A stretch of 64,000 nt of DNA from NCBI RefSeq assembly GCF_004000435.1, contig NZ_RBVZ01000005.1:124001-188000 (forward strand), written 5' to 3'. The notes beneath the pieces are model-generated. The model saw only the letters and a program-made list of their open reading frames with translations. It was not told the DNA's origin and made no database searches. This document shows positions 26,721 through 30,814 of the stretch, piece by piece. The translations under genes and the position numbers were made by a program. How positions within the stretch are numbered: position 1 is the stretch's first letter; every line of letters starts with the position of its first letter. The DNA is from Alexandriicola marinus (GTDB lineage Bacteria > Pseudomonadota > Alphaproteobacteria > Rhodobacterales > Rhodobacteraceae).

Positions 26721-27301
26721 GCCCGAACATTCTGAGGTCGTCCGGTTGGCGGGGTCCGGAGTGAGTATTTGGACCAACGCGAAAGGGCGGGTCGCAGCGC
26801 CCCGCTGGTCCTGGGGCGCGAAAGTGAAGACGATTTCCGGGGCAGGACCGCCGGCAGGATGGCGTGCCGGCATCCGGGTCGCGACGGCGGGCCTGCGCGC
26901 TGGCCGCCGAGATAGGGTGGCGCGATGTGTGCCCGGCGATTGCGAGCGTCACCCTGTTGGTCCGGGCCGAGGCGACCGAGGCAGCGCCTTGGGAGGCGGT
27001 CCCGCTCCTTGCTCCGCCGCGCGCGCGGATCGTGGCGGAGCGCATGACCCTTGTCCTGACGGGCAGTGATATGACGGCCCGCAATCTCAACATGATCCGC
27101 AAACTCTCGGATCGGGCGCAGCCCGGACTGGACTGGGACGGGCGCACCTGCTAAGGCGCGTTCATGAAAAGTCATCGCCGCATCATTATCTGCTGCATTA
27201 TTCCCTGCTGACATACGTCGCGGGCCGCTTTTCACATCTTTCCATCCCAGGTGAAATCAGCCAAGCCCGCGGGTAAATACCCTCGAGCCGAAAGACGCCT
27301 G
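26721..27301. other. 580-nt gap with a possible gene remnant
   Basis: No confident gene lies between the VOC gene and cysS. An open frame at 26864-27154 on the plus strand ends with sequence that reads like real coding DNA (APPRARIVAERMTLVLTGSD then MTARNLNMIRKLSDRAQPG), with GC-rich third positions. It has no good start codon or ribosome-binding site and is closed upstream by a stop at 26825. A decayed or frameshifted gene is the simplest reading. I see no RNA gene, terminator or operator of note. Confidence 0.4.
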
Positions 27302-29035
27302 ATGATCCGCCTCTACAACACCAAGACCCGCCGCAAGGAAGAGTTCGAGCCTCTCGATCCCGACAACGTGCGGATGTATGTCTGCGGCCCCACGGTCTAT
27401 GACCGGGCGCATCTGGGCAATGCGCGGCCCGCGATCGTCTTTGACGTGCTGTTCCGGCTGTTGCGTCATGTCTATGGGCCCGATCACGTGACCTATGTGC
27501 GCAACTTCACCGACGTGGACGACAAGATCAACGCGCGCGCCGCCGAAACGGGCCGGCCGATCGGCGAGATCACGGCCGAGACGACGGGCTGGTATCTTGA
27601 TGACATGGCCGCGATCGGCGTGATGGAGCCCACGCACATGCCGCGCGCCACCGCGTGGATCGGTCCGATGGTGGCGATGATCGAGGACCTGATCGCCAAG
27701 GGCCATGCCTACGAGGCGGAGGGCCATGTCCTGTTCCGGGTCCGCTCCTATTCCGACTACGGCGCTCTGTCGGGCCGGTCGGTCGATGACATGCGCGCGG
27801 GCGCCCGAGTCGAGGTTGCCCCCTACAAGGAAGACCCGATGGATTTCGTGCTGTGGAAGCCATCGACGCCCGACCTGCCCGGATGGGAGAGCCCCTGGGG
27901 CCGGGGGCGGCCCGGCTGGCATATCGAATGCTCGGCCATGGCCTATGAGTTGCTGGGCGAAAGCTTCGACATCCACGGCGGCGGCAACGACCTGCAATTC
28001 CCGCATCATGAGAACGAGATCGCCCAGTCGAAATGCGCCCACCCCGAGGGCGATTTCGCGCGGGTCTGGATGCATAACGAGATGCTGCAGGTCGAGGGCA
28101 AGAAGATGTCCAAGTCCTTGGGCAACTTCTTTACCGTGCGGGATTTGCTCGATCAGGGCGTGCCGGGCGAGGTGATCCGGTTTGTCATGCTGAGCACGCA
28201 TTACCGCAAGCCGATGGACTGGACGGAGAAGAAGGCCGAGGAAGCGCAGGAGTTGCTTCATAACTGGCGATTGCTAACCGAGTTTGCTGAGCCCTCGCAG
28301 CCTTCGTCGAAGGTGATCGCTGCCCTCGCTGATGATCTGAATACGTGGGAAGCAATTGAAGAACTGAAGAAGTTAGCCGACCGAAAAGAAGCTGGTGCCC
28401 TCAAGGCATCAGGGAATTTGCTGGGGCTACTTTATGATCAACTCGGCGAGTGGAGCTGGAAAGAGCGCTCTGTCTCTGACTTGATGGAGGTTCCAGAATG
28501 GCATCCTGCGTCGCGGTGGTTGTCTGAGTCATTGGGTTTAGTTGTACAGAAGCTTAGTCAAATCAATGCCCCGCTATTTGAGCTTTCAAAGCAAGCAGTC
28601 AAGCAGATTGAAGTAGGAAGAGCGGTTGAAGGCAAAATTAGGATCTTTGCTCAGCAATATTCGAACATCGGCAAGCAGGCTGCAAAGGCGATATTGTCAA
28701 GTTCGGAGCCACCAATTGATGCTGCTCGAAGCCTCGCAAGTTTTTATGGTCGACTAAAGAGGGATTATGCAGCTGAAATCGATATGGTTGAAGGGACGAT
28801 ACCAATCTCAAAACTGACCATTGAGAACATGAACGCCATTAGAGCTGCCAATATTGTCGACAAGATCGAGAAACGTGCCGCCGCGAAGAAAGCAAAACAA
28901 TTCCAAGAAGCCGATCAGATACGGTCCAATTTGGAAGATTTGGGGATCATTCTGCACGACACTCCAGATGGAACAAAATGGACACTTTCTGAGGCTTTCG
29001 ATCCATCTAAACTGGAGGACTTGTCCGATGAGTGA
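27302..29035 (+). CDS. cysS: cysteinyl-tRNA synthetase, mosaic with enlarged C-terminal half
   Basis: The protein is 577 residues, about 100 longer than usual. Residues 1-320 are an ordinary class I CysRS: zinc ligand C28 in [14 protein letters not shown] (HIGH equivalent at 37-40), [22 protein letters not shown] and KMSKS near residue 268. From about nucleotide 28262 (residue 321) GC falls from about 60-68% to about 47% to the end of the gene. About 135 residues without family similarity lie between [11 protein letters not shown] (about 381) and the C-terminal [20 protein letters not shown] (about 518 on). The reading frame is intact and all catalytic motifs remain, so the enzyme is probably active. 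It overlaps no neighbour. Confidence 0.93.
28262..29035 (+). other. low-GC segment covering the 3' part of cysS
   Basis: Eight 60-nt lines between 28321 and 28920 (28321, 28381, 28501, 28561, 28681, 28741, 28801 and 28861) average about 46.5% GC by hand count, against 68% at 27901-27960 and 60% at 29221-29280. Codons such as TTA, AGA, ATA and AAA, rare in neighbouring genes, become frequent. The segment keeps the frame and restores a CysRS-like C-terminus ending FDPSKLEDL. There is no integrase, direct repeat or tRNA at its edges, so gene conversion or homologous replacement from a low-GC donor is more likely than a mobile element. Confidence 0.8.
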
Positions 29036-29191
29036 GGCGGCGATCCAACGAAAGCCCTCCCGGGGGGGAGGTGTCGCCATTGTCGCTTGGACCAATGGCG
29101 CGAAACGGCGACCTTGGCGCATCCGCCCCCGTTTCGCGGGGCGATCGATCACGCGCCCTTGCTCGAAAGAAGAAACGGAAAGGGCAGGGCG

Positions 29192-30814
29192 ATGACCGAA
29201 CGCCTTTATCTCTATGACACCACCTTGCGTGACGGGCAGCAGACCCAAGGCGTGCAATTCTCGACCGAGGACAAGATACGCATCTCCAAGGCGCTCGATG
29301 ATCTCGGCGTCGACTATATCGAAGGCGGCTGGCCCGGTGCGAACCCGACCGACAGCGCGTTCTTCGAGGCGGGGCTGAAGACGCGGGCCACCATGACGGC
29401 CTTTGGCATGACCAAGCGCGCGGGACGGTCGGCGGCCAATGACGATGTGCTGGCCGGCGTGATCAACGCGGGCACCCCGGCTGTCTGCCTTGTTGGGAAA
29501 TCGCATGATTTCCATGTGACGACGGCTCTTGGCATCACGCTTGAGGAAAACGTCGAGAATGTCCGCGCCTCGTTCGAGCATATCGTGGGTTTGGGGCGCG
29601 AGACTCTGTTCGACGCCGAGCATTTCTTTGACGGCTACAAGTCGAACCCGGATTACGCGCTCGAGGTGTTGCGTGCGGCTCATGAGGCCGGCTGTCGCTG
29701 GCTGGTTCTGTGCGACACCAATGGCGGCACGCTGCCCCACGAGGTGCGCGAGATCGTGGGCGCGGTGATCGCAGCCGGCATCCCGGGCGAACGGCTTGGC
29801 ATCCATACGCATGACGACACCGGCAATGCGGTCGCCAACACGCTGGCCGCCGTCGATGCCGGCGCGCGCCAGATACAGGGCACGCTCAATGGTCTGGGCG
29901 AGCGGTGCGGCAATGCCAACCTGACCACGCTGATCCCGACGCTTCTGCTGAAACAGCCCTATGCGGGCCGGTTCGAGACCGGGGTCAGTCATGCGGCGCT
30001 GCGCAATCTGCGCAAGGTGTCGGGCCTGCTGGACGAGATCCTGAACCGCGTGCCGTCGAAACAGGCGCCCTATGTGGGCACCTCGGCCTTCGCGCACAAG
30101 GCGGGACTGCATGCCAGCGCCATCGCCAAGGACCCGACGACCTATGAACATATCGACCCGGCAGTGGTCGGCAACAGCCGGATCGTGCCGATGTCGAATC
30201 AGGCGGGTCAGTCGAACCTGCGCCAGCGGCTGGTCGAAGCGGGGCTCGAGGTGGCGCCGGGTGATCCTGCGCTTGGCCGCATTCTCGATGCGATCAAGGA
30301 GCGCGAGGGCAAGGGCTATGCCTATGACACCGCGCAGGCGAGTTTCGAACTGCTGGCCCGGCGGGAGCTGGGCCTCTTGTCGAAATATTTCGATGTGGAA
30401 CGCTACCGGGTGATCTCGGAACGCAGGCGCAACGCCAAGGGCGAACTGGTGGTCGAGTCGGAGGCCGTGGTTACAGTCACGCTGCCGGACGGGTCGAAAC
30501 GGACGAGCTTCTACAAGAACGAGGGCGCGTCCGAGTGGCAGGATGCGGGTCCGGTCAATGCGCTCAGCCGGGCGCTGGCGCAGGATCTGGGCCCCTACCA
30601 GGGGATCATCGATGACCTGCGGCTGGTGGATTACAAGGTCCGCATCACAAATGGCGGGACCGAGGCGGTGACCCGCGTCATCATCGACAGCGAAGACAGC
30701 CAGGGCAGGCGCTGGTCGACGGTGGGGGTTTCGGCCAATATCGTCGAGGCCTCGTTCGAGGCACTGCTCGATGCGGTGATCTGGAAACTGGTGCGCGACG
30801 GGGCGCGGGCGTGA
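29192..30814 (+). CDS. cimA: citramalate synthase
   Basis: The 540-residue enzyme condenses pyruvate with acetyl-CoA to citramalate, feeding isoleucine biosynthesis. N-terminal YLYDTTLRDGQQTQGVQFS is the HMGL-like catalytic segment. GIHTHDDTGNAVANTL and QGTLNGLGERCGNANL are metal and substrate loops. The C-terminal part (about 390 on) is a LeuA-type allosteric domain. ATG 29192 gives the normal start. It is 156 nt after cysS and overlaps the next gene by 4 nt (GTGA). Confidence 0.92.
   Translation: MTERLYLYDTTLRDGQQTQGVQFSTEDKIRISKALDDLGVDYIEGGWPGANPTDSAFFEAGLKTRATMTAFGMTKRAGRSAANDDVLAGVINAGTPAVCLVGKSHDFHVTTALGITLEENVENVRASFEHIVGLGRETLFDAEHFFDGYKSNPDYALEVLRAAHEAGCRWLVLCDTNGGTLPHEVREIVGAVIAAGIPGERLGIHTHDDTGNAVANTLAAVDAGARQIQGTLNGLGERCGNANLTTLIPTLLLKQPYAGRFETGVSHAALRNLRKVSGLLDEILNRVPSKQAPYVGTSAFAHKAGLHASAIAKDPTTYEHIDPAVVGNSRIVPMSNQAGQSNLRQRLVEAGLEVAPGDPALGRILDAIKEREGKGYAYDTAQASFELLARRELGLLSKYFDVERYRVISERRRNAKGELVVESEAVVTVTLPDGSKRTSFYKNEGASEWQDAGPVNALSRALAQDLGPYQGIIDDLRLVDYKVRITNGGTEAVTRVIIDSEDSQGRRWSTVGVSANIVEASFEALLDAVIWKLVRDGARA

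Follow-up and report, generated by a model that had tools for sequence, protein, structure and literature searches.

A low-GC 3′ half in the cysS gene of Alexandriicola marinus and signs of recurrent C-terminal displacement in its family

The usual view of core translation genes is that each is either inherited or replaced as a unit, and yet one half of cysS, the gene for cysteinyl-tRNA synthetase (CysRS), appears to have been exchanged repeatedly in the Rhodobacteraceae. We describe the cysS gene of Alexandriicola marinus in a stretch of 64,000 nucleotides (contig NZ_RBVZ01000005.1, positions 124,001 to 188,000), called the window below, together with its counterparts in the host's alphaproteobacterial family. 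L numbers denote cysS loci and G numbers denote genomes of that family, both being labels of this analysis. The part of cysS beyond about codon 315 is called the tip, the 3′ half or the C part, and the catalytic 5′ portion is called the N part.

The cysS locus

The features of the locus, in window coordinates, are as follows (GC3, GC content at third codon positions).

27302..29035, + strand: cysS, an unbroken frame of 577 aa
27302..28246, + strand: 5′ part of cysS, catalytic domain with HLGN and KMSKS at native GC (Pfam tRNA-synt_1e, residues 15-316; GC3 0.85)
28214..28276, + strand: junction zone, about codons 305-325 (21 residues), with a drop in identity at residue 316 (0.74 to 0.42)
28262..29035, + strand: low-GC, foreign-looking 3′ half including the stop codon (GC3 0.49)
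28310..28456, + strand: DALR-like stretch, residues 337-385; weak DALR_2 match, aligns with relatives
28466..28864, + strand: extra stretch, about residues 389-521, without counterpart in the alignments or genomes searched
28874..28981, + strand: probable C-terminal anticodon-binding domain, residues 525-560 (PF23493, just under the cut-off; phmmer match to CysRS 1li5, E 1.2e-4)
28997..29023, + strand: family tail FDPSKLEDL, in the translation
29036..29191, + strand: gap between cysS and cimA, searched with C-terminal parts
29192..30814, + strand: cimA (citramalate synthase), native flank, an open frame with family matches

An alternative GTG start at 27251 would extend the protein to 594 aa. 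The protein passes the TIGR00435 CysRS model (459 bits; cut-off, 340), and a Pfam scan returned aminoacyl-tRNA synthetase families exclusively, with no Rhs core protein. The gene is the only full CysRS found in the host genome and, judged by sequence, its product is a putative cysteine--tRNA ligase. HLGN (of the HIGH type), KMSKS and FDPSKLEDL, claimed for this protein in an earlier note on the window, are all present in the translation; we take the first two to have their usual roles as CysRS motifs. In the 3′ half, DALR_2 scores 15.3 bits (residues 17-39 of that half; cut-off, 22), and PF23493 scores 22.8 bits on the half and 21.3 on the whole protein (cut-off, 23).

The composition changes inside the frame. 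In 300-bp steps, GC content is 0.63 to 0.67 over 27550-28149, 0.46 to 0.50 over 28300-29049 and 0.62 again over 29050-29349, which bears out the GC break that the earlier note had placed near 28262. GC3 is 0.85 upstream of 28262 and 0.49 downstream, lower than in any of the other open reading frames picked in the window (minimum, 0.64), and the difference of −0.37 is the second strongest among 128 cysS genes. An assembly error at 28262 is unlikely: the frame has no interruption, cimA comes directly after it as in relatives, and similar junctions occur in tens of other genomes. The N part shares 81% identity with its counterpart in Paracoccus denitrificans, and residues 2-310 show 78 to 86% identity with 31 family relatives. 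Compared with L255, from the closest genus on a tree of the flanks, the N parts are 86% identical and the tips 33%.

The protein is also long. From DWT onward it has 272 aa, the highest value among 144; the commonest forms have 146 to 149. The enlarged C-terminus was correctly recognized in the earlier note, but the excess, which follows the DALR part and precedes the C-terminal domain, measures about 124 residues and not about 135. The long form was not found in close relatives: the best matches listed from 394 family genomes leave the extra stretch (about residues 389-521) uncovered, and a full-length relative would head that list. The stretch likewise has no near relative in genome_contigs and no counterpart in the family alignments. 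The structure prediction suggested for it gave a helical model with a predicted local distance difference test (pLDDT) score of about 30 (P0001 model, 6 alignment rows; 59.9 overall), which says little; P0002 modelled alone reached 42.4. Neither structure prediction nor domain search indicated a function. We treat the stretch as part of the window's tip; other family tips have extra stretches and extensions of their own. The tips of L062 and L074, for instance, have a common C-terminal extension (DELD..., AWRSKP...).

Searching the gap between cysS and cimA in the window with C-terminal parts revealed no remnant of another 3′ half. With the first 266 residues of the cimA product as a query, a best match was obtained in all 295 family genomes, and in Paracoccus ferrooxidans cimA is annotated beside cysS in the same order.

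The family survey

Of 295 family genomes, one for each genus, 288 gave a CysRS match, as did 362 of 394 at an E value of 1e-150 or lower. From these genomes a set of 144, later 164, cysS genes was assembled. Most of the 164 were taken by score rank and some were chosen for long frames or odd C-termini; some later-fetched loci, several of them low-GC, stand outside this set. The window's genus (G000) and those of G218 and G005 are represented by one genome each. A pattern search for tRNA-Cys gave no match in G000.

Mean pairwise identity per 15 residues is 0.59 to 0.96 up to residue 315 and 0.26 to 0.54 from residue 316. GC3 drops by more than 0.15 in the 3′ half of 63 of the 164 genes, a count that may be somewhat high because part of the sample was picked for unusual ends, and rises by more than 0.15 in none. 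The distribution is two-peaked, 86 genes having a difference of −0.1 or above. (An early GC3 count took 128 of 144 genes, the other 16 lacking the exact motif.) The drop reaches up to 0.40, with a sharp onset, and ends at about the stop codon. In the low-GC group GC3 declines at codons 310 to 330, and the 5′ boundary falls within the final block of strong conservation, shifting by some codons between genomes when judged by eye. GC content of the gap between cysS and cimA is alike in the low-GC and native groups (0.68 and 0.67), which places the 3′ boundary at about the stop codon.

The low-GC halves are diverse. Clustering at 50% identity resolves the 63 into 48 clusters and the 86 native halves into 8, and 16 pairs of low-GC halves share 50 to 61% identity. 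The family tail pattern occurs in 124 of 164 family CysRS proteins, including 40 of the 63 low-GC halves, and in none of 30 from a control family, which suggests that the tip pool belongs to the family.

The control was another alphaproteobacterial family, from which 30 loci were returned (59 of 61 genomes have a CysRS match). There the GC3 drop affects 1 of 30 cysS genes, length is nearly constant, and C identity tracks N identity. At N identities of 0.80 to 0.85, C identity is 0.69 in the control family and 0.40 in the window's family; at 0.90 to 0.95, the values are 0.84 and 0.34. A second control took the remaining genes of 300 aa or longer from 20 long loci: none of 150 has the drop, against 12 of 19 cysS genes there, although these loci were partly selected for odd cysS and the stop-to-stop frames used tend to raise the difference (16 of 150 lie above +0.15).

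The start of cimA lies in the downstream sequence of 158 of the 164 cysS genes, and within 600 bp in 139 of 144. L082, L124 and L136 have no cimA behind cysS despite more than 1.2 kb of downstream sequence. In native-type L010, the 596-bp gap before cimA holds a low-GC frame (0.49) matching DUF6680 (PF20385, E 2.1e-41), so this site has received another foreign-looking gene as well. When 16 genomes with an odd or no cysS match were searched again, 14 gave matches, most of them partial and some split or located at the start of a contig, while one genome had a divergent CysRS. In five assemblies (G118, G155, G181, G232 and G272) the match stops at query residue 36 to 147 and cimA matches are weak (E about 1e-30 to 1e-33); the contigs are perhaps broken at the variable locus. 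Three genomes (G056, G139 and G083; L275, L276 and L277) encode a second CysRS in frames of 447 residues without a GC break, 57 to 59% identical to the window N part. In G072 (L285 and L286), a 99% complete genome, the one CysRS-like gene obtained is divergent (about 40% identical), and a different contig, which carries cimA, has no CysRS in the sequence upstream of that gene; whole-gene replacement is possible there.

Decoupling from the flanks and remnants

Pairwise distances were correlated for 137 of 144 genes, the rest lacking cimA or having too short a piece of it. Over all 137 genes, the correlation is 0.37 between the N part and cimA and −0.13 between the N and C parts. In the low-GC group (53 genes), N-C, C-cimA and N-cimA correlations are −0.09, 0.10 and 0.35; in the native-GC group (71 genes), they are 0.29, 0.26 and 0.29. 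Native-GC C parts follow their hosts and low-GC ones do not, with saturation as a caveat. Three sister pairs with an N identity of 0.91 have C identities of 0.36 to 0.49; for the sisters L142 and L262 the values are 0.91 (N), 0.80 (cimA) and 0.36 (C). On an approximate tree of the N part plus cimA (155 of 164 genomes; 140 labelled, intermediate GC3 differences omitted), the low-GC state requires at least 38 changes, against 45.7 (standard deviation 2.9, minimum 34) with shuffled labels; it is scattered, with some clustering. The GC break, GC3 and this decoupling of the C part uphold the earlier note's picture of a native catalytic half joined to a low-GC, foreign-looking 3′ half.

In 2 of 141 gaps longer than 50 bp, drawn from the 164 genes and the loci outside that set, a complete cysS is followed by the remnant of a different 3′ half. 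In L274 a 71-residue open reading frame begins 57 nt past the cysS stop codon and matches PF23493 (33.4 bits; cut-off, 23). Its GC3 is 0.70, against 0.54 in the attached half, to which it is 44% identical over merely 34 residues. In L273 the other 3′ half lies in a 486-bp gap and is 58% identical to that of native-type L100 over 88 residues, and 38% identical to its own attached half over 66. Weak matches in four further gaps were too short to qualify as remnants.

Search for a donor or carrier

The conserved donor group that had been predicted did not emerge from contig, phage, plasmid or viral-contig searches. P0002 found four loci in genome_contigs, the CysRS of Nitrosopumilus and of a Marine Group I thaumarchaeote, which were rejected as donors since they have general CysRS parts in common without the extra stretch. 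Among phages, P0002 gave two weak matches (E 0.3 and 0.7), the C-terminal part of L075 matched 14 unannotated records at 30 to 36% identity, and a tail consensus query had no match. A first search of plasmids gave one weak match; another gave 69 records at less than 60% identity, and many of the 20 listed were annotated as cysS or were very large replicons. The tail consensus matched five Paracoccus replicons. Viral contigs yielded no match for three C-terminal queries. With the whole protein as query, five IMG/VR contigs (L219 to L223), two of them longer than 500 kb, were seen to encode CysRS relatives.

Interpretation

The sharp junction, the low GC content, the recurrence across the family, the lack of correlation with the flanks and the two remnants point to recurrent C-terminal displacement of cysS in this family, resembling that of rhs toxin genes, with the window carrying one product; we consider this the probable explanation. 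Incoming DNA with a different CysRS 3′ half would recombine through the conserved end of the catalytic domain, at about codons 305 to 325, and would supply a new DALR and anticodon-binding part through its own stop codon. In this order of events the old 3′ half would be pushed downstream, usually decaying before cimA. The recombination route would need homology on one side and little or none on the other, and the boundaries, taken with the nearness of cimA and the lack of a carrier or a clear attachment core, fit either such one-sided homology, as proposed for Vibrio cholerae, or circles, as proposed for rhs. Since new halves would be set before old ones, leftovers are expected between the stop codon and cimA, and the two remnants are the strongest evidence for displacement over fast divergence. 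The allele replacement from a lower-GC donor proposed in the earlier note was right in kind but too narrow: comparable junctions recur across the family and two relatives keep remnants, and a single event is insufficient to account for them.

Several observations weigh against recurrent displacement. Approximately unbiased (AU) tests were applied to five pairs whose C parts resemble each other; for none of them did the tests reject a sister relationship by the flanks (p 0.33 to 0.73), and the constrained tree was even better for two of the five. Exchange between sampled genera is therefore not proven, and the discordance expected between the halves stands for distances, which are uncorrelated, but is not proven for tree topology. 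C distances in the low-GC group average 0.68, a level at which saturation could mask vertical signal; native-GC sisters can differ too (L100 and L163: N 0.90, C 0.42); and the family sample allows no comparison of two species within one genus. Remnants occur in just 2 of 141 gaps and not in the window; L274 was included because another search had pointed to it, and the remnant of L273 has the same GC3 as its attached half (0.67), so that GC cannot tell which of the two is newer. No carrier of tips was found in the phage, plasmid and viral-contig searches, the AT-richness of the tip pool is left without explanation, and the uniformity of three codons near the junction, given below, leaves an attachment core slightly open.

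Among the rival explanations, the best survivor is two-sided homologous recombination, for example through gene transfer agents, which would swap ancient 3′-half alleles without displacement. The order of 5′ cysS and cimA is conserved and could provide homology on both sides, and the family tail, which none of the 30 control proteins has, is present on 40 of the 63 low-GC halves. This explanation fails to account for remnants behind a complete cysS and for 63 AT-rich halves with no GC-richer one, and we regard it as unlikely.

Very fast vertical divergence of the 3′ half under an AT-biased mutation load, with no replacement, would suit the near-saturated C distances, the five pairs for which the AU tests leave vertical descent unrejected and the partial clustering of the low-GC state on the flank tree. 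It is very improbable in view of the GC3 fall of up to 0.40 with its sharp start and its end near the stop codon, the remnants strongly unlike the attached half of the same gene and the sisters at N 0.91 and C 0.36.

Elements that restore the 3′ end of a gene have precedents, and a prophage or integrative element could have used cysS as its attachment site, brought the 3′ half and later been lost. In its favour, the junction zone is narrow, and the low-GC group is more uniform than the native group at codons 304 (0.89 against 0.60), 309 (0.87 against 0.65) and 310 (0.93 against 0.52). Against it, this zone is not distinctive when set beside other conserved windows and offers no clear attachment core; with cimA starting less than 600 bp behind cysS in 139 of 144 loci, no element was seen in place (integrase genes were not searched for); and such a half was absent from the viral contigs and phage records searched. 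We regard this account as equally improbable.

As the selective cause of recurrent displacement, we favour, by inference, diversifying selection that acts on the tRNA-binding domain. In an arms race, new tips might be selected by toxins or phage proteins directed against CysRS or tRNA-Cys, the tips circulating as an AT-rich pool and being installed by rhs-like displacement; we offer this combination as a conjecture, and a rather doubtful one. As to the vehicle, gene transfer agents could spread tips once made: those of Rhodobacter capsulatus move random 4.5-kb fragments, according to a published account (PMC9690577).

Displacement in cysS would make its cause testable, as the question of what attacks CysRS or tRNA-Cys. 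It also speaks against using cysS as a marker for this group, and the tips, a range of different anticodon-binding domains on a shared catalytic core, amount to a library supplied by nature.

Comparison with known systems

Among the titles and abstracts listed by literature searches, none describes such tip displacement in cysS, and a search for cysteinyl-tRNA synthetase together with Rhodobacteraceae returned one unrelated paper. The window CysRS resembles other bacterial CysRS (TIGR00435; PF23493; 1li5) in its catalytic domain, its motifs and, with a score just under the cut-off, its C-terminal domain, and differs by the stretch of about 124 residues from the DALR part to the C-terminal domain.

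For effector-immunity modules of the type VI secretion system (T6SS) in V. cholerae, displacement through homology-facilitated illegitimate recombination has been proposed by Kirchberger et al. (2017; PMC5361080). As described there, the likeness lies in a conserved upstream anchor, a new module brought in and an old downstream part left behind. The T6SS modules differ in that immunity genes are kept as arrays, whereas cysS encodes a housekeeping enzyme and has no evident partner gene.

The closer parallel is with rhs genes, for which Jackson et al. (2009; PMC2935791) describe C-terminal displacement in which core and tip are decoupled and old tips are displaced downstream, and propose recombination through circles. 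In both cases a GC-rich conserved core carries an AT-rich exchangeable C-terminus, and the Serratia example given in that source (core 67.7% GC, tip 46.4% GC) lies close to the window cysS. The decoupling is seen in cysS as an N-C correlation of −0.13 against 0.37 for the N part and cimA, subject to saturation. According to the same source, rhs genes often occur with arrays of dissociated tips and partial cores, whereas cysS showed at most one remnant per locus, without a core, and is a single-copy aminoacyl-tRNA synthetase gene whose tips are tRNA-binding domains. What is new is that an essential housekeeping gene probably undergoes tip displacement of the rhs kind.
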